Below, piece by piece: positions 1-17,353 of a stretch of 17,722 bases of DNA (position 1 is its first letter; each line of letters starts with the position of its first letter). The position numbers and the translations under genes are program-made. Source of the DNA: Spirochaetales bacterium (lineage in GTDB: Bacteria > Spirochaetota > Spirochaetia > Sphaerochaetales > Sphaerochaetaceae); NCBI GenBank assembly GCA_012519125.1, contig JAAYQY010000335.1:1-17722 (forward strand), given 5' to 3'. The notes below the pieces were generated by a model. The model had not been told where the DNA came from, searched no databases, and was given only the letters and a program-made list of their open reading frames with translations.

Positions 1-153
1 CTCGGTGGCTGGATCACCGCTCCGTTTGTAGGCAAGCAGATTGTTGATGCCTGGCTTTCAGTCTCCTTCACCGAAAAGATGGAGTTCAAGAAAGAGTTCC
101 TGACCAACGCCTTCAATCAGGTACAGGTCCTGGAAGAGGAGCAGTTTCGATGA
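1..153 (+). CDS. RpiB/LacA/LacB-family sugar isomerase, C-terminal 50 residues (5' end outside window)
   Basis: Frame 1 is open from the first base to TGA at 151-153. The translated tail reads LGGWITAPFVGKQIVDAWLS and then a basic, acidic-mixed helix. This matches the C-terminal signature of ribose-5-phosphate isomerase B and galactose-6-phosphate isomerase subunits: a CLG or LGG turn, a short strand, then an A..IVDAWL helix. The family interconverts aldose and ketose forms of four- to six-carbon sugars, usually phosphates. The stop overlaps the next start as ATGA, so the gene is translationally coupled to the alcohol dehydrogenase. In the sulfo-TK pathway an RpiB-type enzyme (SqwI) isomerises 4-deoxy-4-sulfoerythrulose and its aldose, and that role fits the neighbours. 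The substrate assignment is inference from context. The active-site half lies outside the window, so family membership rests on the C-terminal motif alone. Confidence 0.7.
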   Translation, partial: LGGWITAPFVGKQIVDAWLSVSFTEKMEFKKEFLTNAFNQVQVLEEEQFR

Positions 154-1331
154 TAGCAAGCATCGCCAGTCCTGTGCACATCGTCTCCTCAACCGAGCTT
201 GATGGAGAGATGTTGGCAGACATCCTTCGGTATACCGCTCTGAAGGCGGGCCGACTGAAGGTGGCTGTCATCCTTGATAATGCTCCGATCAAGGAGAAAG
301 ATGCATTGGTCGAGCACCTGAAATCGGTATTCGATGTCCAGGTCTTATCGGATGTGCAACCCAATCCAAGGACCGCTGACATCATGCGCATGTTCTCCGA
401 TGCCAGCTTCGCAGGATCGGACCTGGTACTCGGCATTGGAGGCGGAAGCGTTCTCGATTCGGCGAAAGCACTGGCCATGCTCTCCACCAACGGAGGAGAG
501 CTCGACCAGTATCTGGGACTGAATGCGACAAGAAGCGTCCAATGCAGGTCACTTCCCTTGGTGCTCATCCCCACCACTGCAGGAACAGGTTCAGAGGTTA
601 CCAAAGTCGGTGTCTACACTACCGAAAGTGGTCGCAAGTATACCTTGGGTTCTCCCCTGATGCATGCCTATACTGCTGTGTTGGCAGCGAACCTGCTGCA
701 TGGAGTTCCCGCTTCGCTCTGCGCCGCGACCGGCTTGGATGCCCTCGACCATGCCTTGGAGTCAATCTGGAACAAGAACAGTACTCCTCTCACCCGCCAG
801 CTTGCAAGAAGAGCGGCGCTGAAGGTGCTCACTACACTCCCCAAACTCTATGAGGCAATCGAAACGGGAGCAGCAGAGCGTACCGTGCTGCAGAGACAGA
901 TGCTCGAAGCCTCGTGCGAGGCAGGCATTGCCTTCAACCTCACCGGAACAGCGAGCGGGCATGCCATCTCCTTCGTCCTCAGCGAAGAGTGGCACATCCC
1001 TCACGGCCTCAGTTGTGCCTTCACCTTGGGTGAAGTCTTCGCTTGGGCTGTCCAGGACAGGAACAACAGAACCGAAATTGCTACGCTCTCACGGTTCCTG
1101 CACCCCGACCTGAAGGACGAGGAGGCTCTGGTACAGCGTCTGGCAGAGGACATCAACGACCTGCTGTCCAAACTCAGCATACCCAGAACCTTCTCTGAAC
1201 TCTCCCTCAATCTGGACAGCGACCAGATACGCAGCCTGTTCCGACGTGCCATGGAAGATCCAAAACTGCACAACCAGACTCCTCCCATGCAAGAAGAAGA
1301 CTTGTACCGGTTGTTGGAGGCAAAACTGTGA
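150..1331 (+). CDS. Iron-containing (group III) alcohol dehydrogenase, probable sulfoacetaldehyde reductase
   Basis: 393 residues, normal for Fe-ADHs. Visible family motifs are the nucleotide loop GGGSVLD (97-103), PTTAGTGSE (141-149) and the four metal ligands D197, H201, H271 and H285. The ligand spacing (4 and 14) equals that of FucO. The helix after the ligands (LESIWNKNST) resembles the subgroup that reduces phosphono- and sulfo-acetaldehyde, where SxWSVNST is typical. The predicted reaction is NAD(P)H-dependent reduction of a short anionic aldehyde in the cytoplasm. With an RpiB-like isomerase upstream and a TauE/SafE exporter downstream, the best fit is sulfoacetaldehyde to isethionate (SqwF-like). 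Phosphonoacetaldehyde reductase or a general alcohol dehydrogenase remains possible. The ATG at 150 overlaps the upstream stop by four bases, and the stop overlaps the next GTG start by four. The Fe-ADH call is certain; the substrate is inferred. Confidence 0.93.
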   Translation: MIASIASPVHIVSSTELDGEMLADILRYTALKAGRLKVAVILDNAPIKEKDALVEHLKSVFDVQVLSDVQPNPRTADIMRMFSDASFAGSDLVLGIGGGSVLDSAKALAMLSTNGGELDQYLGLNATRSVQCRSLPLVLIPTTAGTGSEVTKVGVYTTESGRKYTLGSPLMHAYTAVLAANLLHGVPASLCAATGLDALDHALESIWNKNSTPLTRQLARRAALKVLTTLPKLYEAIETGAAERTVLQRQMLEASCEAGIAFNLTGTASGHAISFVLSEEWHIPHGLSCAFTLGEVFAWAVQDRNNRTEIATLSRFLHPDLKDEEALVQRLAEDINDLLSKLSIPRTFSELSLNLDSDQIRSLFRRAMEDPKLHNQTPPMQEEDLYRLLEAKL

Positions 1332-2068
1332 GTGCCCTGTTGCTCAGCGGGCTGGTCGTGTTTGTTACCCACACCCTGGAAGCCATCACCGGCTTCGGGT
1401 GTGCTGTTCTCGCCATGCCCTTTGTCAGCGCCTTGCTGGGGGTACATATGGCAGTGAAGGTCATCACCTTCCTCGCATGGTTGCTTGCTCTCTACCTGGT
1501 GGTTAAAAACTACAAGCAGATTGATTGGAAGCAGTATGCGATCATTACCGGGTGCATGCTCTTAGGCCTTCCCGTGGGGATGTATCTGTTCAGAACCCAG
1601 CAGAGCGATACCCTCAACCTTATGCTTGCCCTCTTCATCATCATCGTCTCCTTGAGCCAGCTGTGGCGATCGGCACGCGGTGGGGCTCCCCGGGCGCCGC
1701 TGACCAAGAAAACGGCACTGCCCTACTATCTGCTGCTTGTTGCCGGTGGGGTGATCCATGGCATTTTCTCCTCAGGAGGCCCCTTGGTGGTACTCTATGC
1801 AACCCGTACGCTTTTGGACAAAGGACGGTTTCGGGCAACACTCTGTCTGTTGTGGACCACACTGAACACCATCATCCTAGCCACTTATTTCATCGAAGGT
1901 TCTGTCACGAAGGACGTGGCTGTCTCAACCGGCCTTCTGATTCCCTTTGTGGTGGCTGGCATCATCGTTGGTGAAAGAATCCACAACAAAGTCGACCAGA
2001 AGAAATTCACCCTCATTGTATTCTCCATGCTCCTGCTGACAGGGGTCTTTATGCTCTTCTCGAGGTAA
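1328..2068 (+). CDS. TauE/SafE-family anion exporter, probable sulfonate (isethionate) efflux
   Basis: 246 residues, mostly hydrophobic, with about seven to eight likely membrane spans. Two internal-repeat signatures of the family are visible: HTLEAITGFG at 15-24 (the HxxEAxxGFG loop of the first repeat) and GGVIHGIFSSGGP at 140-152 (the second-repeat glycine/serine loop). The C-terminal GERIHNKVDQ stretch (215-224) followed by a last span is also typical. TauE/SafE proteins move sulfonates, sulfite or related anions across the inner membrane. Here the exporter follows an Fe-ADH, which suggests export of the reduced end product. The start is GTG at 1328, overlapping the dehydrogenase TGA (GTGA). 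No cysteine or soluble extension is fused to it. The direction and substrate of transport are inferred from gene order, not from sequence. Confidence 0.9.
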   Translation: MSALLLSGLVVFVTHTLEAITGFGCAVLAMPFVSALLGVHMAVKVITFLAWLLALYLVVKNYKQIDWKQYAIITGCMLLGLPVGMYLFRTQQSDTLNLMLALFIIIVSLSQLWRSARGGAPRAPLTKKTALPYYLLLVAGGVIHGIFSSGGPLVVLYATRTLLDKGRFRATLCLLWTTLNTIILATYFIEGSVTKDVAVSTGLLIPFVVAGIIVGERIHNKVDQKKFTLIVFSMLLLTGVFMLFSR

Positions 2069-2072
2069 ATCA

Positions 2073-2783
2073 ATGGCAAGCAAACAGTTTCAGGTTCCCC
2101 AGGCTTTGATCGCGCAGAACCCCCTCACCATGATACTGCGAATCGACTCATCACCCTTTACGAAGTATGGAAGGGTGTTGAACGACCTGTCTGTGGACAA
2201 ACTCGTGGCAAAAGCCGATGAGCTCACCGATATTCCCCAAGAGGGAAACCTCTACGTTGCAGACCTTCAAGCCTTGCATCAGGAAGAGCAAGCTCAAGCC
2301 TTGGGACAATACTTTGGGTTCCAGGAGATCCAGATTGGCTACTGCAATGGGAAGAATACGACCATCAATGGGGTTGAGTATCACAAGAGTCCGGAACTTT
2401 TCATCGCTGTCACCGATTGCCTTCAATTTCTTACACGATTCGACAGGCTCAAGGAGTTCAACTCAGTCGATACGCACGATGCAGAGCTCTTCTACTTCCC
2501 CAAAGGAAGTGCAGTCCTGATCGACCCGCATGTGCTGCATCTTTCCCCCTGTGCGGTGTACAAAGAGGGCTTCAAATCCCTCATCGTCCTGCCCAAACAA
2601 ACAAATGAACCCTTGAGCGAAGCCATGGAGGCTGTGCGCAAACAGAGCAAGGATGGCGAAACACGCATCCTTTTCAAGCAAAACAAGTGGATGCTCGCCC
2701 ATCCCCAGCGACACCAGCTCATCAAAGGCGGGGTCTGCATCGGCCTGGTCGGCCCGAACCGTGGGGTACAGCCACTGGATTGA
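2073..2783 (+). CDS. DUF4867-like cupin-fold protein linked to sulfosugar catabolism
   Basis: 236 residues, no signal peptide and no membrane span. The middle of the protein has a cupin-like pattern: VEYHKSPELF (101-110), giving the HxxxE pair H104 and E108, and then a PKGSAVLIDPHVLHLSP stretch (143-159) with H153 and H156. These four residues could form a metal site like those of cupin-type sugar isomerases. I place it in DUF4867 from overall resemblance, which I could not check. From memory, members of that family recur in gene clusters for sulfoquinovose breakdown, and an aldose-ketose isomerase or epimerase role is plausible. It starts four bases after the exporter stop, with GAGGT eight bases upstream of the ATG inside the exporter's last codons. 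It is the last gene of the operon and is followed by a strong hairpin. Gene call is firm; family moderate; function open. Confidence 0.75.
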   Translation: MASKQFQVPQALIAQNPLTMILRIDSSPFTKYGRVLNDLSVDKLVAKADELTDIPQEGNLYVADLQALHQEEQAQALGQYFGFQEIQIGYCNGKNTTINGVEYHKSPELFIAVTDCLQFLTRFDRLKEFNSVDTHDAELFYFPKGSAVLIDPHVLHLSPCAVYKEGFKSLIVLPKQTNEPLSEAMEAVRKQSKDGETRILFKQNKWMLAHPQRHQLIKGGVCIGLVGPNRGVQPLD

Positions 2784-2813
2784 AGCTTGACCGGCCAAAC
2801 GGCCGGTCAAGTT
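2784..2813 (+). terminator. Perfect 11-bp hairpin after the sulfonate operon
   Basis: The arm CTTGACCGGCC (2786-2796), loop AAAC and arm GGCCGGTCAAG (2801-2811) form a perfect stem, extendable by one G-U and one A-U pair. It begins three bases after the stop of the DUF4867-like gene. The downstream sequence (TTCTGCTGA) has only a weak T tract, so intrinsic termination is plausible but not textbook. The stem may instead protect the 3' end of the message. It lies in the convergent gap before the minus-strand P-loop gene. Confidence 0.55.
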
Positions 2814-2823
2814 CTGCTGAATA

Positions 2824-2854
2824 CACCGAAGGCCGCTTGCGCGGCCCTCGGGTG
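2824..2854 (-). terminator. GC-rich hairpin in the convergent gap, probable end of the fusA-side unit
   Basis: CACCGAAGGCCGC (2824-2836), loop TTGC, then GCGGCCCTCGG (2841-2851) form a stem with one A/C mismatch. An outer CA/TG pairing is possible with one bulged base (2852). It sits five bases beyond the stop of the minus-strand P-loop gene. On that strand the following bases are GTATTCAGC, so the U tract is poor. With the hairpin at 2786-2811 it makes a paired barrier between two convergent genes. A bidirectional termination role is inferred. Confidence 0.45.
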
Positions 2855-2858
2855 AACA

Positions 2859-3566
2859 TTACTTGGAAATGAGCATGGTTTTGGGATCGAGGCTGACACC
2901 CATAGGCTTTTCAACCATCCCTTCATGCGTCTTCACGGCGGTCATCACCACCTTGTCGCGCTCCTCATTGTAGATCAACCCAATGAGGACATCGATCAGA
3001 TTCGTGTATTTTTGCATGGTGTTCGGAACACCGTACTTGTCATAGACCACATCAGCACGGACCGGAGATACACTGAACCACACTTCCAGGTTCATGCTCT
3101 CTGAAAACTCCTTGATCCGTCTTACATCGTCTTCGGTGGCAACAGTAAGCTTGTATCCGTCGAAGAGGATGGCATCAGCCTTGAATGAGCCGTGTTTGAT
3201 CAGGGTCTCCAAGCTGGAAAGCACCTTGTCGATGGTGACATTTTCCTGACTGAAGTTCATAACCACACGATTGGAGAGAATATTGTTGTACACTGATGCT
3301 GCGTCTGAAAGACTGCGACCATCGGATACTTCGCGGAAAACCTCTTTGTACCAGTTGATCACATGTTCCACATTACCAGAGAACGAAACATGGATGACAT
3401 GTTCGCCCCTGAGCAGCTTATCGGTGGCAAGGTGTACCAGACATGCCGTCTTTCCTACACCGTGTCGAGAAACGAGGACTCCGAGGTTCCCACGACCGAG
3501 CCCGCCGCCCAGTGATTCCTCAAATACGCGAAGAGGACTCAAGTCGTTCAACTCTTGAATTTCCAT
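2859..3566 (-). CDS. RecA/KaiC-like P-loop ATPase of unknown role, downstream of fusA
   Basis: 235 residues from the ATG at 3566. I chose this start because GGAGGTGA ends five bases before it; an upstream in-frame TTG at 3581 would overlap that ribosome site. The N-terminus has a KaiC/RadA-like layout: a G-rich lead-in (GGGLGRGNLGVLVS), a Walker A variant SRHGVGKT (33-40), then a helix and the strand VIHVSFS. A Walker B-like strand DAILFDG lies at 131-137. The first Walker A position is Ser instead of Gly/Ala, so it is slightly off consensus. There is no DNA-binding domain, zinc finger or second RecA domain. It lies 148 bases downstream of fusA, past a terminator, with a TATACT-like -10 at 3603-3608 but no good -35. 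Nucleotide binding is likely; partner and process are unknown. Confidence 0.8.
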   Translation of the reverse strand: MEIQELNDLSPLRVFEESLGGGLGRGNLGVLVSRHGVGKTACLVHLATDKLLRGEHVIHVSFSGNVEHVINWYKEVFREVSDGRSLSDAASVYNNILSNRVVMNFSQENVTIDKVLSSLETLIKHGSFKADAILFDGYKLTVATEDDVRRIKEFSESMNLEVWFSVSPVRADVVYDKYGVPNTMQKYTNLIDVLIGLIYNEERDKVVMTAVKTHEGMVEKPMGVSLDPKTMLISK

Positions 3567-3632
3567 AATGCTCACCTCCAAGTAGAAATTAGGTTCATCC
3601 CCAGTATACTATGGAAATTCACACTTGGGTAC

Positions 3633-3656
3633 CTTTTTGCGTGCTGGCGCAAAAAG
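3633..3656. repeat. 9-bp inverted repeat overlapping the fusA terminator tract
   Basis: CTTTTTGCG (3633-3641) and CGCAAAAAG (3648-3656) are perfect inverted arms around a six-base loop (TGCTGG). The right arm contains the A run that serves as the U tract of the fusA terminator on the minus strand. The two hairpins therefore compete for the same bases. On the minus strand this second hairpin lies between the terminator and the P-loop gene and could act as a backup stop. The role is inferred. Confidence 0.5.
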
Positions 3657-3690
3657 AGGCCCCCAAAAGGCATTCAAACCTCATGGGGGC
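3651..3690 (-). terminator. Intrinsic terminator downstream of fusA
   Basis: Read on the minus strand, GCCCCCA (3690-3684) pairs with TGGGGGC (3665-3659) across an 18-base spacer and is followed after CTC by a run of five U (3655-3651). It lies 24 bases beyond the fusA stop. The GC-rich seven-base stem plus U tract is a reasonable rho-independent terminator, though the loop is long. On the plus strand the same stem is followed by TTTT, so it may act in both directions. Confidence 0.65.
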
Positions 3691-3713
3691 TTTTGGATAC
3701 CAGAAGCAGAATC

Positions 3714-5822
3714 TTACTTCTGTTCCTTCCTGCGCTTCTCCTGATAATCCTTCTTCAACTGCTCGGAAACACTGGTGGGTACTCTTCCGTACTTACCGAT
3801 TTCCATCGTGAACTCGCCCTTGCCCTGGGTAAGGGAGCGCAACACGGTGGAGTATCCGAACATCTCAGAAAGCGGAACTTCTGCGAGCACGGTACACATG
3901 GCATTGTCCTCAGTGGAACTGATGATAAGACCACGTCTCTGGTTGATCGAGGCGAATACGCTTCCCTGGAACTCATTGGGAGCGACGACCTCAACCTTCA
4001 TGATCGGCTCAAGGATAACCGGCTTGGCCTTCTCAAACGCCTCACGGAATGCACCAAGAGCGGCAGTCTGGAACGCCTGGTCGGAGGAGTCGACGGGGTG
4101 CCAAGCACCATCGTTGACCACAGCCTTCACGCCGATGACCGGGAAGCCGAGCTGACTGCCCTTCTTGACAGCGGTCTGGAAACCCTTGTCACAGGAGGGG
4201 ATGTACTCGGTCGGGATGGATCCACCCTTGACCTCATCAACGTACTCGTACTCCTTCAGCTCCTCACCCTCAGCAGGATCTGGAAGCGGCTCAATATAAC
4301 CGGCAATGCGGGCATACTGACCGGAACCACCAGTCTGCTTCTTGTGGGTATAGTTGAAGTCAGCACGCTGGGTGATGGCCTCACGATATGCAACCTCAGG
4401 CTGGCCGACCTCTACCTCTGCCTTATACTCGCGCTTCATGCGCTCGACATAGACTTCAAGGTGGAGCTCACCCATGCCCTGGATGATCGTCTGGTTGGAC
4501 TCGGGATCCACAAACGTGCGGAACGTCGGGTCTTCCTTGGTGAAACGGTTGAGCGCCTTGCCCATGTTGTCAGCAGCCTTCTTGTCCACCGGCTTGATGG
4601 CCAGTGAGATAACCGGGTTGGGAACGAACATGGAGGAGAGCGAATAGTTGAGCTTCGGGTCACAGAAGGTGTCACCGCTGGCACATTCGATGCCGAACAG
4701 TGCAGCAATCTCACCACACCCAGCTTCAGTCAGGTCTTCCATGGCTGCAGAATGCATACGGATCAAACGACCAACGCGGAACTTCTTGCGGCTGCGGGTA
4801 TTGTAGAGTTCATCACCCTTCTTCACCTTGCCCTGGTAGACGCGGATATAGGTAAGCTGACCATACTGACCATCCTCAAGCTTGAATGCAAGAATGACCG
4901 GGGGGAGCTCGTCGTTGGACTGGAGGATAACTTCCTCTTCATTCTTGTCCAAATCGAGAGCTCTGTTGACAACTTCGGTCGGGTTGGGCAAGTAGCTGAC
5001 AACGGCATCAAGCAAAGCCTGGATACCCTTGTTCTTGTATGCAGAACCCATCAGAACGGGGACCAGCTCAAGACGGATGGTAGCTTCACGAATCGCCTTG
5101 CTCAGCAACTCTTCAGTCACATTGTCCTCGAGCATGGCTTCCATCAGCTCATCAGAGCACATGGAAACACCGTCAAGCAGCTCTTCGCGCTTGGCCTGTG
5201 CTTCTGCAAGCAACTCAGCGGGAATCTCAGCCTCACGAATCTGGTCCATGTTTGGACCTGCATCAAAGTAAAGAGCCTTCATGCTGACCAAGTCAACAAC
5301 ACCCTCAAGGCGTTCTTCGAGCCCGATGGGAATCTGCATCAGCACTGCATTCAGGCCGAGCTTATCCACAAGCTGCTTCTTGACGCGATACGGATTTGCA
5401 CCGGTTCGGTCGCACTTGTTGATAAAGGCGATGCGGGGAACATGGTAGCGCTTCATCTGCCGGTCAACCGTGATTGACTGACTCTGTACACCACCGACGG
5501 AACACAGGACCAACACAGCACCGTCAAGCACGCGCAAGGAGCGCTCGACCTCGATGGTGAAGTCAACGTGTCCCGGAGTGTCGATGACGTTGATCTCCGT
5601 TCCTTTCCAAGTGACGTTTGTTGCAGCACTTGCGATGGTGATACCACGCTCACGCTCCAGCTCCATGCTATCCATGGTGGCGCCAACGCCATCCTTACCA
5701 CGAACTTCATGAATTTCGTGGATCTTATTGCAGTAGTAGAGGATGCGTTCGGAGAGCGTAGTCTTACCCGAATCGATGTGGGCACTAATTCCGATGTTCC
5801 TCAAGTTTTGCAAGTCAGCCAT
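3714..5822 (-). CDS. fusA: Translation elongation factor G, spirochaete/mitochondrial EF-G1 type
   Basis: 702 residues, full length for EF-G, the cytoplasmic GTPase that drives tRNA-mRNA translocation on the ribosome. GTPase motifs: P-loop AHIDSGKTT (14-22), switch I RGITI (60-63 region), DTPGH (81-85) and NKCD (135-138). Domains II to V follow without gaps, ending in a lysine-rich tail. The P-loop has Ser where most bacterial EF-Gs have Ala (AHIDAGKTT), and the [20 protein letters not shown] stretch (41-60) is the form seen in mitochondrial EF-G1 and the spd group of spirochaetes, planctomycetes and some deltaproteobacteria. In Borrelia this type does translocation while a second EF-G does ribosome recycling, so a second paralogue is expected elsewhere. 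Start ATG at 5822 has AGAGG nine bases upstream. It stands alone with its own promoter and terminator, not in the str operon with rpsL/rpsG/tuf. Confidence 0.97.
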
Positions 5823-5922
5823 ACTATATAACCTCTATAAAATAGAATAAAAACGAGTCCACAGGTTCCCTGCAGCATCCAATTCAATCCTGATGAAAAG
5901 CTCTTTCTTCCTAGCACACATC

Positions 5923-5968
5923 AGGTTATCTTCTGAAGGGATGGGAAGGGACGGAAAAGAGACAACCT
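5923..5968 (-). promoter_or_regulatory. Hairpin with pyrimidine-rich loop in the fusA 5' leader
   Basis: On the minus strand AGGUUGUCU (5968-5960) can pair with AGAUAACCU (5931-5923), nine pairs with one G-U, closing a 28-base loop made almost only of C and U. It lies within the first 60 bases of the predicted fusA transcript, about 100 bases before the start codon. I recognise no known riboswitch or ribosomal-protein leader. A role in control of EF-G expression is speculative. Confidence 0.35.
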
Positions 5969-5988
5969 TGTCCCAACGTACCTCGTGG

Positions 5989-6017
5989 ATAATAGTATAT
6001 CTCGCTTTTTTGTGCAA
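5989..6017 (-). promoter_or_regulatory. Sigma-70-type promoter for fusA
   Basis: On the minus strand TTGCAC (6017-6012) is followed after exactly 17 bases by TATTAT (5994-5989). This would start transcription near 5982 and give a leader of about 160 bases before the fusA ATG. The rest of the 262-base divergent gap (5823-6084) holds the leader hairpin and the upstream region of the HIT gene. Confidence 0.6.
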
Positions 6018-6062
6018 TCCCTTTTCCCAACACAATCCTTTTCCGACTCGACACTTGTGTGC

Positions 6063-6068
6063 TACAAT
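6063..6068 (+). promoter_or_regulatory. Possible -10 box for the HIT-gene operon
   Basis: TACAAT matches the -10 consensus in five of six positions. The -35 candidates are weak (TTTCCG at 6040-6045 with 17-base spacing). If used, transcription would begin near 6075, right at the GAGGTG ribosome site, so the leader would be very short. Low confidence; an earlier promoter may be the real one. Confidence 0.25.
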
Positions 6069-6084
6069 GGCTTTGAGGTGTGCC

Positions 6085-6486
6085 ATGGAAACGATTTTCA
6101 CGAAAATTCTTGAAGGCAAGATTCCTTCGGTCAGACTCCATGAGGATGAGCTTTGCTTTGTCATCCTCGACATCAATCCGGTCAACAAAGGACATCTTCT
6201 GATCATCACAAAGGAGAGCTATCCACTCCTTTCCGATTGCCCGGACTCCACACTTTCCCACCTGATGCAGGTTGCAAAACGTGCCGATGCAAAACTTAGG
6301 GAAGTCTTGCACTGTGATGCAACGAATCTGATCATCAACAACGGCAAGGCCAGCGGACAGGAAGTACCGCACCTGCACCTGCACCTCATTCCCCGTTGGG
6401 AGAACGACAAGAAGAACATCCATCTTCAAAAAGAGACCTATACAGACGGTGAGATGGCCGAGTATGGGAAAACACTGGAGTTCTGA
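6085..6486 (+). CDS. HIT-family (HINT-like) nucleoside phosphoramidase/hydrolase
   Basis: 133 residues. The histidine triad HLHLHLIP at 96-103 (H96, H98, H100) and the N-terminal pattern IFTKILEGKIPSVRLHEDE (4-22) identify the HINT branch, which hydrolyses AMP-linked phosphoramidates and related adenylates in the cytoplasm. NLIINNGKASGQEVPH (81-96) is the conserved loop before the triad. The zinc cysteine often found near the N-terminus (IFCKI) is Thr here. I start at ATG 6085 because GAGGTG ends four bases upstream. An in-frame ATG at 6067 would sit inside a possible -10 box. First of three close genes, three bases before the next start. Substrate not predictable from sequence. Confidence 0.93.
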   Translation: METIFTKILEGKIPSVRLHEDELCFVILDINPVNKGHLLIITKESYPLLSDCPDSTLSHLMQVAKRADAKLREVLHCDATNLIINNGKASGQEVPHLHLHLIPRWENDKKNIHLQKETYTDGEMAEYGKTLEF

Positions 6487-6489
6487 GCC

Positions 6490-6771
6490 ATGCGTGCATG
6501 TCACCATTGTCATACTGATATCGATCCTTTGATGAGCATCGGCTACAATACTGTTTGCCCGAAATGTGGAAAAAGCCTGCATAGTTGCGTCAACTGCCGC
6601 TTCTACAGCCCCGGCTCCTACCATGACTGCTCCGAGGGTGTGGAGGAGTATATTGAGGATAAGGTGGAGGCCAACTTCTGCGACTCCTTCATGCTTGGGG
6701 AGGACACCAAGGAAGAAGCGCAACGCAAGGCTGATGCCAAAGCCAGGGCGGAAGCCTTCTTCAACTTCTAA
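6490..6771 (+). CDS. Small eight-cysteine zinc-ribbon protein of unknown function
   Basis: 93 residues, cytoplasmic, no signal or membrane segment. Cysteines fall in CxxC pairs: C4/C7, C23/C26 and C33/C36, then C47 and C64. This allows two zinc sites, a ribbon from the first four and a second site from the last four. The phrase CVNCRFYSPGSYHDC (33-47) looks conserved in style. The C-terminal third is a charged, Lys/Glu/Ala-rich helix. The ATG at 6490 follows the HIT stop by three bases, with GGAG nine bases upstream, so translational coupling is likely. It could bind nucleic acid or a partner protein; I cannot assign a function. The composition and operon position make it a real gene rather than a chance frame. 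Confidence 0.85.
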   Translation: MRACHHCHTDIDPLMSIGYNTVCPKCGKSLHSCVNCRFYSPGSYHDCSEGVEEYIEDKVEANFCDSFMLGEDTKEEAQRKADAKARAEAFFNF

Positions 6772-6786
6772 GGAATAGGAACCATC

Positions 6787-8460
6787 ATGAATACACGTCG
6801 CTTGTTGCTTCTGATCTTGCTCTCAGTCACCATCCTTTTCAGCGGATGCCAGTCCTACACAGCCAAAGAAGCCAAGTCCCGCTTGGCACTCCCTCCTGAG
6901 CCAGAGACGACCTTGGTCACCAAGTACTCCGTACTGGAAGCTGAAAAGCAGGAACTTTTGGCCAAACAGGAGGCAGAAGAGCTGCAGCTGCGCCAGCAGA
7001 TGGAGCAAGAGGAAGCACAGCGAAAACAGGCTCTTGCATGGGAACAGCTTACACAGGCTGAAGCGGATGCAAGAAATGCCATTGCCCTGCTCACCGAAGA
7101 GAAACAAACCCTTCAGGACCAATTGGACCAATTGCAAGCCCAGCTTGCACAGACGAGCACGACTCTCTCATCCCAAGAGCTCACCGCAGAAGGGCTGACC
7201 AACGAGCTGACGAGCATTGAGTCTCGCTACGCAGAGCTCTTGCTCTCCTTCGATCAGCTCTCCTACCATGCAAGTGAACTGGAAACACTGCTTTCCGAGC
7301 AGCAGTTGATAAATGACCATCTGCAGGAGTTCCTTACCCAAGCACAGACCGATCACCAAGCAGAGATGGCCGCACTGCTTGCCTCACACGAGCAGGAGGT
7401 TGCTGAGCTGCTTGCAACCATCAGGAGCCTGCAGACCGACAATACCCTGCTCAAGGCCCAGCTTGAGGAAAAGACCCTCACCCTGGAAGAGAAGACAAGA
7501 CTTGAGCAGCAACGTGCTGAACAAACGCGAAAAGCAGAGCAAGAAGAGATGGAGCGCCAGCAGCAGATTGCCCTCGAGCAACAGCGCCTGGCCCAGCTTG
7601 AGGAAGAACAAAGGCTGCGCCAGCTTGCCCTCCACCAACAAATACCCCCGCTCTCGGAGTTGACCTATCCCAGGCTGTACACCACACAAGCGCCAACCAT
7701 ACACCTTGAGGAGAATGGGCAACTGGATGTCATGCTGCTCCCCCTCGATGATCGGATGTGGGATTCCAAAGCAGTCGTCAAGGAAGTGCACACCAGCATC
7801 AGTGATCTGAATTACCCCGTCATGTTGGTAACCGGTCATATGCAGAATGTCATCGATTTGGTACGGGAAATGGGCTTGCATGCCGTGCTGGTCCGGGGAG
7901 GAGCGATCATCAGCAGGCTGCCGATCATCAAGAGTGATGAGTACGGGGCAAGCGTTCAGTTCAGCGAAAAGAAAACCGTACGCTTCTCGGTTGCCAACCT
8001 TCCCGAGTATCAGGTCTTGGAGGCCTTCCAAGCAAAGGCGGACTGGCAGACACTACAGAAGAAGATCACTCCCAATCGTCTGGCAGCACTGAAGGCCATC
8101 ACCGCCCAAGGCGCGGTTACCGAACCCACCATCCTTGGCGCCAGCCTCTATGAACCCTCGCACCAGGATTGGAACACCTTCAGCCCGATCGCCTACCGCC
8201 AAATCGATTACCTGTGGCCTCTGACTGCCCACCTTGAGGAGGAACAGTTCTATGATGTCTATCGGGCTACTCACTTTTCCAGTGCAACCGATGCAGGAAA
8301 TACCTTGTTGAAGGGAGAACTGAAAGAGCGCTTGGACTACCTGTTCAGCAGAAAGCTGCTGCCGCTCTCTTCCTCGATGCTCACCATCGGAGGTGAGTCG
8401 GTACCTGATGGGCAAGGCATCTCACGCTATGGCTTGGTAGCGAGCTTCCTCGTACCTTAG
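6787..8460 (+). CDS. Coiled-coil lipoprotein with a catalytically degenerate EEP (DNase I-like) domain
   Basis: 557 residues. The N-terminus is a lipoprotein signal (MNTRRLLLLILLSVTILFSG) with lipid cysteine C21. Residues about 45-295 are Gln/Glu/Leu-rich heptads, a long coiled coil. The C-terminal 245 residues follow the order of an endonuclease/exonuclease/phosphatase fold: GGAIISRLPI (371-380, family G.AILSR.PI), ILGASLYEP (449-457, where active members have GDFN), a D.YR..H stretch, RLDYLFSRKLLPLSS (515-529, family RIDYIFVS), and SRYGLVASF near the end (active members have SDHxPL/V). The metal-binding Glu, the Asp-Asn pair and the final Asp-His are absent, so it is probably not a nuclease or phosphatase. 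It would sit in the periplasm, anchored to a membrane. AAGGA lies upstream of the ATG, 15 bases after the zinc protein. Lipoprotein and coiled coil are clear; the EEP fold is motif-based inference. Confidence 0.85.
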   Translation: MNTRRLLLLILLSVTILFSGCQSYTAKEAKSRLALPPEPETTLVTKYSVLEAEKQELLAKQEAEELQLRQQMEQEEAQRKQALAWEQLTQAEADARNAIALLTEEKQTLQDQLDQLQAQLAQTSTTLSSQELTAEGLTNELTSIESRYAELLLSFDQLSYHASELETLLSEQQLINDHLQEFLTQAQTDHQAEMAALLASHEQEVAELLATIRSLQTDNTLLKAQLEEKTLTLEEKTRLEQQRAEQTRKAEQEEMERQQQIALEQQRLAQLEEEQRLRQLALHQQIPPLSELTYPRLYTTQAPTIHLEENGQLDVMLLPLDDRMWDSKAVVKEVHTSISDLNYPVMLVTGHMQNVIDLVREMGLHAVLVRGGAIISRLPIIKSDEYGASVQFSEKKTVRFSVANLPEYQVLEAFQAKADWQTLQKKITPNRLAALKAITAQGAVTEPTILGASLYEPSHQDWNTFSPIAYRQIDYLWPLTAHLEEEQFYDVYRATHFSSATDAGNTLLKGELKERLDYLFSRKLLPLSSSMLTIGGESVPDGQGISRYGLVASFLVP

Positions 8461-9065
8461 TCGTCTCCCTCATCAACCACCACGGCCTCAGCCTCGATCA
8501 CCGTCTGTGAAAACTGACGGTTGATCTTGCGTATCCTCACCGACCACAAGACCATGCCAAGGCCCATGGCGATGAGCACCACGCCGACCAACTTGAGCAG
8601 CATGCTGCCGATCTGCTGGGGAAAGACAAACAAGAGGATCGCCACCACCAACGAGAAAACCCCTTCTGAAAGAAGCGCAGAAACAGGAAGTTCACTCTTG
8701 CGCAACAGCAGTGCATCAAGGAAAGAGATGATTGCAGAGAAGATCAGCTCAATGGCAATAAGATAGAGCAGAAGCGTCCAGCTTACATTGGCCGCAGAGA
8801 GAGGGACGATGAAGGCAACCAACCCCAACACGATACTGATGAGGGCTTGGATGAGCGTTGCCATTTTGGTACGACGACCAAGGGTGTAGGTTCTGAGGGC
8901 AAATAGACTCGCAACACCAGAGCCAACCAGAAACAATCCCAAGATGGAGATGAAGATCCTTACGAACGACTCCTGTTGAAACATCAGATAGATGCCAAGC
9001 ACCACCAGAAGCGAGCCGAATATCGTTGCCAGCATCAGATGTCGTTTGAAAAAAGTATCCTGCAT
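8457..9065 (-). CDS. HdeD/DUF308-family inner-membrane protein
   Basis: 202 residues from the ATG at 9065, chosen because AAGGAG lies six bases upstream; the frame stays open 29 codons further but that stretch is Cys-rich and holds the likely divergent promoter. Six hydrophobic spans are visible in three hairpin-like pairs, with small residues (G, A, S) spaced as in the DUF308 repeat of HdeD, a protein tied to acid and envelope stress in enterics. The last 30 residues are an acidic cytoplasmic tail ending DEGDD. The stop overlaps the stop of the convergent lipoprotein gene by four bases (8457-8460). It diverges from the HAD gene across 89 bases. The function here is unknown beyond family membership. 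Confidence 0.85.
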   Translation of the reverse strand: MQDTFFKRHLMLATIFGSLLVVLGIYLMFQQESFVRIFISILGLFLVGSGVASLFALRTYTLGRRTKMATLIQALISIVLGLVAFIVPLSAANVSWTLLLYLIAIELIFSAIISFLDALLLRKSELPVSALLSEGVFSLVVAILLFVFPQQIGSMLLKLVGVVLIAMGLGMVLWSVRIRKINRQFSQTVIEAEAVVVDEGDD

Positions 9066-9088
9066 GGAAAGCTCCTTGAAAGCTGGTC

Positions 9089-9118
9089 TTGTGCAACCAC
9101 AGCTTTTTTCTTTATGGT
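9089..9118 (+). promoter_or_regulatory. Probable promoter for the HAD hydrolase gene
   Basis: TTGTGC (9089-9094) and TATGGT (9113-9118) are separated by 18 bases, giving a start of transcription near 9125 and a leader of about 30 bases that contains the AAAGGA ribosome site. The match is fair, not strong. The same 89-base gap must also drive the divergent HdeD-like gene. Confidence 0.4.
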
Positions 9119-9154
9119 ACAGACAACAACCACACAAGTAAAGGACAGCCAACC

Positions 9155-9847
9155 ATGTACCGCCACCTTTTCTTCGATGCAGACGGAACCCTCTTCGATT
9201 TTGATCGTGCTGAACAACAAGCTTTCGCCCTCATGGCCCAGGAACTCTCACTGCCCAGTGACGAATCCGCATTTGCTCTCTACAAAAGTTGCAATGAGGA
9301 GTGCTGGAAGCTGTTCGAAAAGGGTATGGTCACCCTTGCCCAACTCAAGACCCAACGTTTTGACCGATTCTTCTCCTCCCTCTCCCTCGAAGGGGACAGC
9401 GAAAAGGCAAGCGCATCATACCAATACCATCTCTCCGGACAGGGAATCCTCTTTGAGCAGAGCATCAAAGTCCTGCAAGTTCTCACTGAGCGAGGGTACA
9501 CACTCTATCTTGCATCCAATGGCATTGCTGACGTACAGAGAGGGCGAATCGCTCATGCAAAGATCGGCCCCTACTTCAAGGGAATCTACATCAGTGAGGA
9601 GTTGGGAGTTCAAAAACCCGATACCCGTTTCTTTGAGCAGATGCTCGGGAAAGAGCAGTTGCTTGATCATAAAAAGAGCTGCCTCATGATAGGAGACAGC
9701 CTCTCAAGCGATATCAAAGGGGGGATTGACAGCGGGTTGGATACCGTATGGATCAACGCAGGGAATCAGGAGCCTCAGGGCGTGGTACCCACCTATACCC
9801 TCACCCACTTGGGCCAGTTGCTGCAACTCTTGTCATCGCCTATTTGA
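9155..9847 (+). CDS. HAD-superfamily hydrolase, YjjG/YfnB-type nucleotidase
   Basis: 230 residues, all four HAD motifs present: FFDADGTLFDFD (6-17; nucleophile D8 and acid D10), LASNG (119-123; S121), QKPDTRFF (153-160; K154) and MIGDSLSSDIKGG (178-190; D181 and D186). The alpha-helical cap lies between motifs I and II. The FDFD after the first motif and the LASNG form fit the TIGR02254 group, which includes E. coli YjjG, a pyrimidine nucleotide 5'-nucleotidase that clears non-canonical nucleotides. Start ATG 9155 has AAAGGA nine bases upstream; the frame continues upstream but without a ribosome site. The last eight bases overlap the end of the convergent FKBP gene. Enzyme class is firm; substrate is family inference. 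Confidence 0.93.
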   Translation: MYRHLFFDADGTLFDFDRAEQQAFALMAQELSLPSDESAFALYKSCNEECWKLFEKGMVTLAQLKTQRFDRFFSSLSLEGDSEKASASYQYHLSGQGILFEQSIKVLQVLTERGYTLYLASNGIADVQRGRIAHAKIGPYFKGIYISEELGVQKPDTRFFEQMLGKEQLLDHKKSCLMIGDSLSSDIKGGIDSGLDTVWINAGNQEPQGVVPTYTLTHLGQLLQLLSSPI

Positions 9848-10628
9848 TGGCCTTCAGTTCAACCTCGACGATGAGCAAACTGTTTGGATCGACTGCCTGT
9901 GTTCCTTCCACCCCATAGGCAAGGCTGGGATGGATCCAGAACCGGTACTTCGAACCAGTCTCCATCAGCTTCACCCCTTCGATGAAACCAGGAACCATAA
10001 TTGCCTGCAACTGGAAGGAAGAGCTCTGTTTTCGTTCATAGGAGCTGTCTATGACCCTGCCGTTAAGCAGCATAATCTGGTAGTCAACCTCAATGATACT
10101 CTCTTCAGAAGGTTTCTCTCCACTCCCTTGGACGAGAACACGGTACTGTAGTCCACTCTCAGTGGCTACAACACCTTCCTGCTTACCGTTCGAAGAGAGA
10201 AAATCCTCTGCAGCCTGTAAATTTTCAGCGGCAATCTTGGCACGCTCCTGTTGAGCTTTTTGCAAAAGGTTCGTCTGTACTTCATGAAGTATCTGGGTCA
10301 TCTCTTCTTGGGAGAAAAAACCGGTATTCTTGCCTGCATCAAGCGCTCCCTTAGCAAAATAAGTAGAGCTGAGGTTGTCAAAGCCTTGCTGTTGCAAGGT
10401 GGTAAAGAGCATATAGCCATAGGTATAGCTGAACCGATCATCAAGGGAGAGGGGTTTCTCCAAATCTGAAATGGCATCCCTGATTTCCACTGTCTTCTCA
10501 GCAGGCGCCATCTTCACAGGTTCTGATACCTGTGGTGCGGGCAACGTGGCCTGGACGGAGCGATTGCAACCTGCAAAAAGCAGCAAGACGAGAAAGGGTG
10601 CGAGGCGTACGGGCAAGAGGTTCTTCAC
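9840..10628 (-). CDS. FKBP-type peptidyl-prolyl isomerase lipoprotein (FkpA/Mip-like)
   Basis: 262 residues starting at GTG 10628, with AAGGA six bases upstream. Signal peptide ends in LFAGC, so C21 is the likely lipid-bearing residue and the protein is periplasmic or surface exposed. A linker (25-55) leads to a helical FKBP_N dimerisation domain (about 55-145; SYTYGYMLFTTLQQQG) and a C-terminal FKBP domain (about 150-262). FKBP landmarks are VDYQIMLLNGRVIDSSY, VPGFIEGVKLMETG and HPSLAYG. The usual pocket Trp (GWxEG) is Phe, and the usual FDSS Phe is Ile, so activity may be lower than in classical FKBPs. It probably assists folding of envelope proteins. Its 3' end overlaps the HAD gene tail to tail. 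It follows the fumarase operon on the same strand after 172 bases. Confidence 0.93.
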   Translation of the reverse strand: MKNLLPVRLAPFLVLLLFAGCNRSVQATLPAPQVSEPVKMAPAEKTVEIRDAISDLEKPLSLDDRFSYTYGYMLFTTLQQQGFDNLSSTYFAKGALDAGKNTGFFSQEEMTQILHEVQTNLLQKAQQERAKIAAENLQAAEDFLSSNGKQEGVVATESGLQYRVLVQGSGEKPSEESIIEVDYQIMLLNGRVIDSSYERKQSSSFQLQAIMVPGFIEGVKLMETGSKYRFWIHPSLAYGVEGTQAVDPNSLLIVEVELKAIK

Positions 10629-10800
10629 GGTTTTTCCTTCCGAGCAGAGTTTTTGCCTCCCTTATCCCATCCAAACAACGGCATGGAATTACCAGACACA
10701 TCATTCACCCCATGACGACGGTCTGTGCAAGAGAGGCTTGCATACAGGAAACTGTACCCCAGCTCAGGAGAAACGTCCAGTAAAAAGAACAGGAACCTGT
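10629..10800. other. Gap between fumarase and FKBP genes with short adjacent hairpins
   Basis: No convincing gene. Two small hairpins stand side by side: TGCAAG/CTTGCA (10726-10742, loop AGAGG) and TACAG/CTGTA (10743-10756, loop GAAA on the plus strand). A third, weaker one abuts the fumarase stop. The FKBP promoter should lie here on the minus strand; TTGCAC occurs at 10729-10724 region but its -10 partner is poor. No tRNA or known small RNA recognised. Confidence 0.4.
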
Positions 10801-10801
10801 C
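10782..10801 (-). terminator. Weak terminator at the end of the fumarase operon
   Basis: On the minus strand GACAG, loop GTTC, CTGTT (10801-10788) is followed by CTTTTT (10787-10782). The stem is only five or six pairs and touches the stop codon at 10801-10803. The U run is good but the stem is weak, so read-through into the FKBP gene is possible. Confidence 0.35.
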
Positions 10802-11325
10802 TATCGGTCAAAAACACTGGCTCCCTGCGCAGTAATGGCAACCACGAGAGGAAAGTGCTCGACCTCAAGCTCAAGCAAAGCCTCCGGCCCAAGTTCGGCA
10901 AAAGCCACCGTTCTGAAGGAGCGGACACAGGAGGCATAGAGGGCACCACACCCTCCGTAAGCCTGCAGGTAGAGCGCTTGATTGCGCTTGATCGCCTGCA
11001 CCACCTGTTCCGATCGAGGTCCTTTGCCTATCATCACCTTCAGCCCACTATCAAGCAACCGAGGAGCAAAGGGATCCATGCGGGCACTCGTCGTCGGACC
11101 ACAAGCACCGATCACCTTTCCCTCGGGTGCCGGGGAAGGCCCCATGTAGTAGATGCAGGCACCTTCCAAGGAGAGGGGAAGAGGTTTCTGCTCATCCAGC
11201 AATTGGACGAGAAGCTTGTGCACCTGGTCACGACCTACATAGAGCTTTCCGCTCAAGAAGATCTGTTCGAAAGGTGCAAGTGAGTGGATGACGTCAGAAG
11301 AGAGCGGCAAAGTCAGTTCACGCAT
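10801..11325 (-). CDS. Class I fumarase / L-tartrate dehydratase, beta subunit
   Basis: 174 residues from ATG 11325, with GGAGGGTGAAG just upstream. Family landmarks: FLSGKLYVGRDQVHK (23-36), IYYMGPSP (58-65), VIGACGPTTSARMD (71-84), MIGKG (98-102) and AYGGCGALY (122-130). This is the C-terminal half of the iron-sulfur hydro-lyase, encoded separately as in two-subunit enzymes of anaerobes; it supplies substrate-binding residues. It overlaps the alpha gene by eight bases (ATGCGTGA), so the pair is made in step. The reaction is most likely reversible hydration of fumarate to malate; tartrate dehydration or a methylfumarate-type substrate cannot be excluded from sequence. Last gene of the def-led operon. 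Confidence 0.93.
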   Translation of the reverse strand: MRELTLPLSSDVIHSLAPFEQIFLSGKLYVGRDQVHKLLVQLLDEQKPLPLSLEGACIYYMGPSPAPEGKVIGACGPTTSARMDPFAPRLLDSGLKVMIGKGPRSEQVVQAIKRNQALYLQAYGGCGALYASCVRSFRTVAFAELGPEALLELEVEHFPLVVAITAQGASVFDR

Positions 11326-12160
11326 CTTCACCCTCCCAGACGATCTTGGCCTTGCGGTCGGCCCAACAGTTGATGGAGACAGCCAGAGGAAGGCCTGCAA
11401 TATGGGTAGGCTCATGCTCTATGGCAACGCTCAAGGCAGTGATGGTGCCACCAAGCCCTCCGCTTCCAATCTCTGTTTGCTGGACCTTTGCAAGAATTTT
11501 CTCCTCCAAGGACGCATACTGAGCATCGGTGTGCTGTTGGTTCACCGGACGAAGCAAGGCTCGCTTGCTCAGATACGCAGCACGGTCCATGCTGCCCCCC
11601 AGCCCTACTCCGAGGAAGATGGGAGGACAGGGTTTGCCTCCCGCAGCCTGGACTATGGCCCCTACTGCTTCAATGACCCCTTCCTCACCACAGGTAGGAT
11701 TGAGCATGCGAACCTGGCAGCAGTTCTCACTGCCAAAGCCCTTGAGCAGGATCTGGATGGTAAGAGAAGAGCCCTCCACCGGTTGCCACCACATGACAGG
11801 AGGAAGATTGGTGAGCGTATTGTTTCGGGCATAAACCGGCTCTTCCACCACCGAATGACGGTAATACGCCTTGTCCACAGCAAGTGAACACCCCTCAAGG
11901 ATGGCAGCCTCGATGGCAGCAAGCCCAAGGGGGCAGGACTTGCCCACATCAACAAAAACCAGGAACATCCCGGTATCCTGGCACATAGGAAGGTGCTGTG
12001 CATCGGCGATTTCCAGATTCTTCAGAATCGCAGCAAGCACTGCCTTGCTCGCCTCGCTCGTCTCTGTCTTCTGTGCCCAGAGGAGGCGTTGGAGCACATC
12101 ATCAGGCACGTGGGTAACCGCATGGATCAGTTCATTGGCAATATGTTCAGCGAGTTTCAT
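11318..12160 (-). CDS. Class I fumarase / L-tartrate dehydratase, alpha subunit
   Basis: 280 residues, the usual size of a separate alpha subunit. The three cysteines that bind the [4Fe-4S] cluster are visible: C60 in MCQDTG, C178 in KPCPPIFLGVGLGG (176-189) and C265 in NCWADR. GSGGLGG (232-238) and PTH (251-253) are also conserved. The enzyme is oxygen-sensitive and cytoplasmic, and it works with the beta subunit encoded just downstream. Its ATG (12160) lies 14 bases inside the end of the VanZ-like gene, so translation is probably coupled. AAGGA and GAGG precede the start. Fumarase is the more likely activity, but the family also contains tartrate dehydratases and I cannot tell them apart here. 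Confidence 0.94.
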   Translation of the reverse strand: MKLAEHIANELIHAVTHVPDDVLQRLLWAQKTETSEASKAVLAAILKNLEIADAQHLPMCQDTGMFLVFVDVGKSCPLGLAAIEAAILEGCSLAVDKAYYRHSVVEEPVYARNNTLTNLPPVMWWQPVEGSSLTIQILLKGFGSENCCQVRMLNPTCGEEGVIEAVGAIVQAAGGKPCPPIFLGVGLGGSMDRAAYLSKRALLRPVNQQHTDAQYASLEEKILAKVQQTEIGSGGLGGTITALSVAIEHEPTHIAGLPLAVSINCWADRKAKIVWEGEDA

Positions 12161-12659
12161 CTACCTCATCCTTCCAATTGGGATCATACAACCAGGGTCG
12201 TGCTGTGAAATAGGAGCCAACCAGCTTAAGAATCAAGAGAACAACAGCAAGACCTACCACCAGGCCCATGAAATCGGCAGCAAGATCCATCCACTCCCGA
12301 GAGCGACCAAACTTCGGCTGCAGCATCTCAACCACGAAGCCGAGCAATGTCCCGGCAACCAACGTATAGATGATGGAAGGCCCCGCCCACGAGGTCAGAT
12401 GCAGGGTGGAGTGCGGTCGTTCCTGTATTTTTCGCTGTTTTCCAGAACCGGGAATCCTCAGGGTAGCGAGGAAAAAGAAGAAGCCGAAGGCCGCATAGGC
12501 AGCCATATGATCACCCTTGTCTGCAAACGGTATCCAGGAGATGCGCGGATACGACTCCTTGGGAATGAAGGAGAGATACAGGACTAGGGCCACCACCAAC
12601 AGGGTGAAGGCTATCCCCACACTCCGAACGATCATTTGCAACGGAATCCTACCTCGCAT
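12147..12659 (-). CDS. VanZ-like small membrane protein
   Basis: 170 residues from ATG 12659; AAGGGG lies six bases upstream. Alternative starts at 12689 (GTG) or 12683 (ATG) would overlap the radical SAM gene by 35-41 bases and have no better ribosome site. Four hydrophobic spans. VanZ-family landmarks are LSFIP in the first span's end, DKGDHMAAYAAFG (loop and second span), and GFVVEMLQP followed by DLAADFMGLVVG (third and fourth spans, with conserved E, Q and D). VanZ proteins are inner-membrane proteins; the prototype lowers teicoplanin sensitivity, but most members have unknown roles. Here it overlaps both neighbours (11 and 14 bases) in the def-led operon. Family call good; function unknown. 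Confidence 0.85.
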   Translation of the reverse strand: MRGRIPLQMIVRSVGIAFTLLVVALVLYLSFIPKESYPRISWIPFADKGDHMAAYAAFGFFFFLATLRIPGSGKQRKIQERPHSTLHLTSWAGPSIIYTLVAGTLLGFVVEMLQPKFGRSREWMDLAADFMGLVVGLAVVLLILKLVGSYFTARPWLYDPNWKDEVDETR

Positions 12660-15863: not shown

Positions 15864-15864
15864 A

Positions 15865-15879
15865 CGGTTAGCCTAACCG
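15865..15879 (-). repeat. Hairpin over the fmt stop, one base before the patatin start
   Basis: CGGTTA (15865-15870), GCC, TAACCG (15874-15879) is a perfect inverted repeat. On the minus-strand message the 3' arm contains the fmt stop (UAA) and ends one base before the patatin AUG; the only Shine-Dalgarno-like bases (UUAGG) are inside the hairpin. Ribosomes finishing fmt would open it, so coupling of the two genes is a reasonable inference. Confidence 0.4.
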
Positions 15880-16812: not shown

Positions 16813-17315
16813 CGCTCTTTTCTCCTCTTTCCCTTGGTGCGTTTCTCATATGCTTTCACCATCTTCTCCTTCTCTTCGTCGGAGAGACGGTCGATGAACA
16901 GAACCCCATTGAGATGGTCATTCTCGTGTTGGATGGCACGGGCGAGCAGACCTTCCGCTTTCACCGTGAACACCTTTCCTTCAATATCCTGGGCCTGCAC
17001 GGTAACCCTGGCGGGCCGCTGGACATCGTGCCAGACGCCGGGGATGGAGAGGCATCCTTCCTCTGAGATATCAGTCTCGATGGAAGTCTCGATGATCTGC
17101 GGATTGATATACGCACGCTTCTCGACTCCCTGGATGTTGATCACAAACAAGCGGCTGGGTACGCCTACCTGCGGTGCGGCAAGGCCGACTCCATCTGCTT
17201 CGGACATCGTTTCGAACATGGCATCTACCAGCACACGCAAGCCGCTGTCAAATTTGGTTATCGGTTGGCACTTTTCTCCAAGCACCTCTTCACCTAGTGT
17301 ATAAATATCTAACAT
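16809..17315 (-). CDS. def: Peptide deformylase
   Basis: 168 residues. Removes the N-formyl group from new proteins, the step that undoes the product of fmt. All three motifs are intact: GVGLAAPQVG (42-51), EEGCLSIPG (85-93, metal ligand C88) and QHENDHLNG (129-137; H130, E131 and H134). The metal is probably Fe(II) in the cell. The C-terminal 25 residues are a strongly basic tail (KRTKGKRRKER). First gene of the seven-gene minus-strand operon. The ATG at 17315 has no real ribosome site and lies only nine bases from the -10 box, so it is probably translated from a nearly leaderless message. Confidence 0.97.
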   Translation of the reverse strand: MLDIYTLGEEVLGEKCQPITKFDSGLRVLVDAMFETMSEADGVGLAAPQVGVPSRLFVINIQGVEKRAYINPQIIETSIETDISEEGCLSIPGVWHDVQRPARVTVQAQDIEGKVFTVKAEGLLARAIQHENDHLNGVLFIDRLSDEEKEKMVKAYEKRTKGKRRKER

Positions 17316-17324
17316 AGTAACTCA

Positions 17325-17353
17325 ACTATACCAACACGCCACTCTCTGGTCAA
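17325..17353 (-). promoter_or_regulatory. Strong sigma-70-type promoter for the def operon
   Basis: On the minus strand TTGACC (17353-17348), 17 bases, TATAGT (17330-17325): five of six matches in each box with ideal spacing. Nine bases separate the -10 box from the def ATG, so transcription should begin within about zero to four bases of the start codon. No other strong promoter is seen in the 196-base gap (17316-17511), which also contains a TACAATTTTGTA palindrome (17422-17433) before the divergent lipoprotein gene. Confidence 0.7.

Follow-up and report, generated by a model that had tools for sequence, protein, structure and literature searches.

Downstream end of a probable isethionate-producing sulfo-transketolase cluster in a Sphaerochaeta-like anaerobe

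The isethionate branch of the sulfo-transketolase (sulfo-TK) pathway was first described in Clostridium sp. MSTE9, with SqwGH, SqwI, SqwF, and SqwE as its components (reviewed in PMC12890257 and PMC9594981). In the published scheme, sulfoquinovose is converted to sulfofructose, SqwGH carries out two C2 transfers with SqwI acting between them, SqwF performs the reduction, and SqwE exports the product (same reviews). The pathway has been recorded for Firmicutes, Spirochaetes, Thermotogae, and Tenericutes (PMC12890257). It was described in Sphaerochaetaceae before the present case: sqwGHI of this family were highly transcribed in isethionate-making rumen microcosms, and the pathway was reported for 11.8% of 246 Sphaerochaetaceae genomes (PMC13219744). 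Here, we analyzed a 17,722-nucleotide stretch of DNA from a Spirochaetales bacterium (contig JAAYQY010000335.1, positions 1 to 17,722; hereafter the window), the first 2783 bases of which very probably represent the downstream end of an isethionate-producing sulfo-TK cluster of a Sphaerochaeta-like anaerobe.

Gene layout and family assignments

The window belongs to a draft metagenome-assembled genome (MAG; 457 contigs, 81.9% complete), in which it is contig C228. It starts at the first base of the contig, and the upstream genes are therefore missing from the assembly of this MAG. Four co-directional genes were read from the open reading frames (ORFs) in bases 1–2783, followed by a hairpin.

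1..153, + strand: RpiB-type isomerase tail (SqwI), last 50 aa plus stop (TGA 151-153), the rest lost at the contig end
150..1331, + strand: Fe-dependent alcohol dehydrogenase family protein, SqwF (predicted sulfoacetaldehyde reductase), 393 aa; PF00465, PF25137
1328..2068, + strand: TauE/SafE membrane protein, SqwE (predicted isethionate exporter), 246 aa; PF01925
2073..2783, + strand: DUF4867 cupin protein, SqvB/SftX accessory of sulfoglycolysis, 236 aa; PF16161
2784..2813, no strand: 13-bp G+C-rich hairpin, possible transcript end; -24.6 kcal/mol, z -5.75

The original prediction had claimed this gene order with overlapping gene ends, and the ORF coordinates agreed with it: the isomerase and reductase genes overlap by four bases (ATGA), the reductase and exporter genes by another four (GTGA), and the exporter and DUF4867 genes are separated by a 4-base gap. 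Its family calls for the three complete genes (Fe-dependent reductase, TauE/SafE, and DUF4867) were likewise borne out by Pfam scores over the cut-off. The dN/dS ratio (nonsynonymous to synonymous substitution rates) was 0.07–0.12 in all six comparisons of these three genes with the relatives L008 and L118, which indicates purifying selection on the window genes. The hairpin lies directly 3' of the DUF4867 gene and ahead of a long opposite-strand ORF; it is not followed by a T run and was absent from the list of the terminator scan.

The isomerase frame is open from base 1 to its stop codon. No Pfam or NCBIfam match was found for the 50-aa tail alone; it is identical in reading to the C-terminus of a full RpiB-type ORF in L008, and the full-length counterpart in L010 matched PF02502 with 139.5 bits, in line with the RpiB-type call made at the outset. 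Bases 1–153 are assigned, from sequence, to the end of the RpiB-type isomerase SqwI. The reductase scored over the Pfam cut-offs for PF00465 (115.3 bits) and PF25137 (105.1 bits) and below every NCBIfam equivalog cut-off. Among 35 reductase sequences, D197, H271, and H285 were invariant and H201 nearly so; we take these four residues to be the metal ligands. As a metal-dependent alcohol dehydrogenase (PF00465), the protein is assigned to SqwF, with sulfoacetaldehyde as its predicted substrate. The exporter ORF matched TauE (PF01925) with 102.3 bits, over the cut-off, and its gene comes after the reductase gene in most relatives. By family and by its place in the same operon, it is a putative sulfonate exporter SqwE with a predicted transport role.

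The DUF4867 protein matched PF16161 with 211.4 bits, over the cut-off, and PDB 9gyy over its full length (E 2.3e-48). Its residues E102, H104, E108, and H156 were invariant in 13 of 13 sequences, and all four ligands of the published 2His-2Glu metal site (PMC11968277) are thereby kept. The family match and the metal site identify the protein as SqvB/SftX. SqvB/SftX was called a putative mutarotase in PMC9594981; the text of PMC11968277, in which the Bacillus megaterium DUF4867 structures (9gyy and 9gyz) were solved and the metal site was found, reports that no mutarotation was detected. The naming varies among papers and also within PMC11968277, where SqvB and SqvD are used for the same protein. 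The original prediction had counted the DUF4867 protein among those needed in the lower sulfo-TK pathway; as described in these two papers, SqvB/SftX is instead an accessory protein and not a lower-pathway enzyme.

The gene identities, order, conservation, and clade observed are consistent with the following route, in which the substrates, the direction of the reactions, and the upstream genes of this organism are predicted. A YihQ-type glycosidase would free sulfoquinovose, and after import an isomerase would convert it to sulfofructose. SqwGH, the split transketolase, would pass two C2 units to glyceraldehyde-3-phosphate, with SqwI isomerising between the steps, and sulfoacetaldehyde would remain. 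Reduction of sulfoacetaldehyde by the window dehydrogenase SqwF would yield isethionate and regenerate NAD+, and the isethionate would leave the cell through the TauE-type SqwE. The DUF4867 protein would probably assist at the sugar end, perhaps in anomer or ring interconversion.

Relatives, reductase clade, and rival explanations

A scan of genome contigs with words of the window's reductase protein retrieved 53 loci. The closest relative was L008, from a Spirochaetales MAG, with identities of 93% (reductase), 95% (exporter), and 94% (DUF4867). Directly upstream of its reductase gene stand SqwI and then the transketolase halves (PF02779/PF02780 and PF00456), and a divergent block encodes a ROK regulator, a FucI-type isomerase, a solute-binding protein, two permeases, and a GH31 enzyme. 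The latter matched PRK10426 with 849.5 bits (cut-off 553); the output label of this model is alpha-glucosidase, and we take it to be the YihQ model. SqwGH was found directly upstream in L008, L010, L118, and others, and the 3.23-Mb contig of G101 (L118) carries the whole gene set, its GH31 gene extending past the stretch examined. L010, from the cultured relative Sphaerochaeta halotolerans, likewise has a complete cluster. Among the 24 loci L008–L031, several of which are cut by contig ends in the stretches examined, SqwH, SqwI, and SqwF were all present in 21, DUF4867 in 15, an SftI-type isomerase in 13, and GH31 in 13. The upstream genes that the original prediction had expected were thus seen in the relatives, namely, a split transketolase, an RpiB-type isomerase, a relative of sulfoquinovose isomerase, a YihQ-model GH31 enzyme, and an ABC sugar transporter; no phosphonate gene, which it had named as a contrary outcome, was among the eight upstream genes that were identified in L008.

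Five spirochaete loci (L018, L020, L023, L024, and L028) have the DUF4867 gene placed between those for SqwF and SqwE, together with an isomerase of the second SftI type, which indicates that the cluster has been rearranged within the phylum.

The reductase was present in 28 of 139 Sphaerochaetaceae genomes, including that of the window (E ≤ 1e-40). At 99% identity, its protein cluster (P0001) covers six contigs, of which the longest measures 43,674 bases. Within 3 kb on the same strand, DUF4867 accompanied it in 26 of the 28 and SqwH in 25. The genomes without SqwH were that of the window (G000), which begins in SqwI, G104, whose contig ends in SqwI (L111), and G098, whose reductase gene lies 645 bases from the contig start; those without DUF4867 were G104 and G127, with none on their contigs examined. 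Such tight linkage to the module (26/28) provides a natural test set for the DUF4867 family. DUF4867 itself occurred in 66 of the 139 genomes, in 40 of which it therefore lies apart from this reductase. Sulfoacetate-type sulfo-TK ends were observed in L104 (1217-10450), L105 (234-12074), and L164 (9951-17414), where genes for an acylating sulfoacetaldehyde dehydrogenase and a CoA ligase stand in place of SqwF and SqwE (in L105 by layout only); against the model for acylating sulfoacetaldehyde dehydrogenase, the L104 enzyme reached 534 bits (cut-off 600). A cluster remnant with permeases, DUF4867, and a GH31 match in two pieces was observed in G110 (L113 4903-10476); the 18-kb stretch contains neither SqwGHIFE nor SftI.

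A tree was built from 35 reductase rows, comprising the window and 34 of the 53 loci; six extracted ORFs that were short, oddly started, or near others were excluded (L026, L031, L043, L047, L055, and L059), and 13 loci were not extracted. Since the loci were retrieved with words taken from the window reductase itself, neither general alcohol dehydrogenases nor SarD or characterised SqwF are represented in the tree. The window reductase grouped with L008 (99/96) and then with L009 (100/99), and a branch at 100/100 parted 15 spirochaete and three Bacteroidota rows, the window among them, from the other 17 rows. PsrA was the best match for each of the nine outside rows that were scanned and exceeded its cut-off in three. 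The window reductase is thus placed by sequence in a sulfo-TK-linked spirochaete–Bacteroidota clade, apart from the phosphonate-linked dehydrogenases, and the placement with phosphonate enzymes named in the original prediction as a refutation was not seen in this tree, which includes no general alcohol dehydrogenases.

Several observations weigh against the sulfo-TK assignment. The best NCBIfam match of the reductase was the phosphonate-linked PsrA (TIGR03405; 194.3 bits, cut-off 423.7) and the second was SarD (NF050025; 159.4 bits, cut-off 700). The only NCBIfam match of the L008 isomerase, the sulfoquinovose isomerase model, reached 202 bits against a cut-off of 700 (347 bits for the L017 isomerase). 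SqwG/SqwH-like halves with 67–75% identity were also found at L102 6324-8069, L117 6870-8623, and L103 679-2449, in contexts without SqwI, SqwF, or DUF4867, so that transketolase identity alone is no proof of sulfo-TK. In the MAG of the window, a SqwH search gave nothing at E ≤ 1e-60, and L008 DNA outside 9852-12700 gave only one weak 72-base match. The first of these observations would suit a pentose-phosphate-like or phosphonate pathway, in which RpiB, transketolase, and a general or phosphonoacetaldehyde-type dehydrogenase act on unsulfonated sugars or phosphonates. In the same direction, PMC11968277 placed 14 DUF4867 sequences under the pentose phosphate pathway, by their RpiB, transketolase, and Fe-dependent alcohol dehydrogenase neighbours; that group has the same gene set as the one seen here, and those 14 may be sulfo-TK too. 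The PsrA score was less than half of the cut-off, the clade is split at 100/100 from the 17 PsrA-side rows, and the gene set is accompanied by a YihQ-model GH31 enzyme, an SftI-type isomerase, and a TauE exporter, all of which make such a pathway very unlikely. The phosphonate reading of the reductase was rejected on the tree split and the PsrA score, despite PsrA being the best NCBIfam match, and the general alcohol enzyme reading on model scores and gene context. The SarD miss indicates from the score that the reductase is not a SarD and says nothing against sulfoacetaldehyde reduction.

The searches of the MAG could also be explained by a decaying remnant, in which the upstream genes were lost in evolution and not through assembly. 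A PF02779 search gave three matches, with the sulfo-TK transketolase not among them, and sulfoquinovose isomerase and sulfoquinovosidase were not found with L008 DNA; a remnant of this kind is seen in G110. The low dN/dS of the three complete genes and the position of the contig cut inside SqwI, exactly where the relatives go on with SqwH, render decay highly improbable, and the absence is ascribed to the contig break and the 81.9% completeness. Alternatively, NagA/NagB-like enzymes might feed the module with a sulfonated or sulfated amino sugar in place of sulfoquinovose, as the Bacteroidota genome G139 (L030), a draft of unstated completeness, has SqwGHIFE with such genes, and a search of it for SftI found nothing at E ≤ 1e-3. 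In L008 and L118/G101, the nearest relatives, the clusters are of the version with YihQ and SftI and show no NagA/NagB-like gene, and the window species keeps DUF4867; an amino-sugar role here is exceedingly unlikely. The sulfo-TK/isethionate interpretation given in the original prediction is supported by the protein families, the upstream genes of relatives, the reductase clade, and the published Sphaerochaetaceae cases (PMC13219744).

Contig C26 of this MAG carries another split transketolase, which was judged not to be the sulfo-TK one; at L096 123-4094, it is followed by a different Fe-dependent alcohol dehydrogenase-type ORF and another ORF.

Bacteroidota modules and NagA/NagB-like genes

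Sulfo-TK sets were located in two Bacteroidota genomes.

L130 3468-5848 and 15639-19525: sulfo-TK set of G140
L132 4869-10004 and L029 10001-11164: sulfo-TK set of G141

One contig of G140 carries an SftI-type isomerase (461 bits), DUF4867, SqwG, SqwH, SqwI, SqwF, and SqwE, interspersed with other ORFs that resemble SusC/SusD by eye. In G141, an SftI-type isomerase (439 bits), DUF4867, SqwG, SqwH, SqwI, and SqwE stand together on L132, with the reductase on the separate stretch L029. Both isomerases scored below the model cut-off of 700. Bacteroidota are not mentioned as sulfo-TK bearers in the main texts of the sulfo-TK papers checked, supplements lying outside this scope; PMC13372026 names them once, in a reference.

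NagB-like genes shared a contig with a sulfo-TK transketolase in three genomes.

L030 7655-16995: NagB-like gene with sulfo-TK transketolase
L019 14526-17626: NagB-like gene with sulfo-TK transketolase
L156 1346-2182 with L164 9951-17414: NagB-like gene and sulfo-TK transketolase

The SqwGHIFE genes of G139 (L030) are followed by MFS, NagB-like, DUF4838, and NagA-like genes. In Breznakiella homolactica (L019/L159), a complete sulfo-TK cluster includes NagA-like, NagB-like, and Gfo/Idh genes. The NagA-likes scored 203–204 bits (cut-off 225.65) and the NagB-likes 74 and 110 bits (cut-off 236.9); neither NagB-like (L030 and L019) had a Pfam match at 1e-3, and both matched NagB structures. Close relatives of the Breznakiella NagB-like were found in G436 and G526 (74–76% identical). 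In all four NagBs of this type, the loop reads PVGP and is two residues shorter, compared with LPTGSSP-like in 10 ordinary NagBs; the NA-RFF motif lacks its Arg at the usual position (one lies close by in L030), another residue stands where the K-A-R-A-L motif has its Lys, and MDEY, GH, and FNEP are retained. We take the altered positions to be the phosphate loop and other phosphate contacts, and their loss suggests that the substrate in these relatives may be a C6-sulfonated, possibly 6-O-sulfated, amino sugar.

The altered NagB of G526 lies approximately 22 kb from a set of genes on the same contig that encode SqwGHI, a relative of the acylating sulfoacetaldehyde dehydrogenase (541 bits, cut-off 600), and subunits of a CoA ligase; sulfatase-like ORFs stand in between, one of which was scanned (arylsulfatase, 196 bits, cut-off 481). 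No NagA-like match was found on the stretches of G526 examined. In G436, the NagB-like gene is on a 4786-base contig without sulfo-TK genes, and the genome gave no SqwH match at E ≤ 1e-40. SqwGH was on the same contig in three of the four genomes with altered NagB; the unselected count was one of two, as G139 and G142 were found through this linkage and were excluded from it. The altered NagB was therefore dropped as a sulfo-TK-specific marker. The linkage gives a hint of an amino-sugar route with a sulfonated or sulfated substrate, against which the unselected count stands, and no published report of such a route into SqwGH was found. We tentatively consider it possible, although rather unlikely, that the lower module is a plug-in used beyond sulfoquinovose, with NagA/NagB-likes of some relatives (and, as far as seen, not of the window organism) converting such an amino sugar to sulfofructose or fructose 6-sulfate for SqwGH. 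The route would comprise deacetylation, deamination to sulfofructose (or fructose 6-sulfate), and cleavage by SqwGH.

Comparison with described systems

The window adds one more uncultured spirochaete with a pathway predicted to convert the sulfolipid sugar of plants and algae to isethionate, which serves as a substrate for bacteria that respire sulfite and form sulfide. Of broader interest are the relatives, which extend the sulfo-TK module to Bacteroidota and in some of which it may serve amino sulfosugars.

With the Clostridium sp. MSTE9 system (PMC12890257 and PMC9594981), the window shares the families of the SqwI tail, SqwF, and SqwE, while SqwGH, sulfoquinovose isomerase, and YihQ are seen only in its relatives. 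The window is without the upstream genes, and the likeness is drawn at the family level and not against characterised SqwF. The sulfoacetate branch (SqwD and SqwKL; Chu et al. 2023 via PMC12890257) has the same upper pathway and was seen in a sister genus (L104 and L105); unlike it, the window has the reductive end of SqwF and SqwE. The structure-solved SqvB/SftX (PDB 9gyy and 9gyz; PMC11968277), which the window's DUF4867 protein matches over its full length with the four metal ligands kept, originates in a Bacillus megaterium sulfo-transaldolase cluster, whereas the window protein is encoded in a probable sulfo-TK cluster. Neosphaerochaeta fermentans MAG SQrumen3 and other Sphaerochaetaceae (PMC13219744) belong to the same family and have the same pathway, with YihQ and DUF4867 (SftX) in the figure legend; by the account of that paper, SQrumen3 represents another genus, and it is likened to the window by description and not by sequence.

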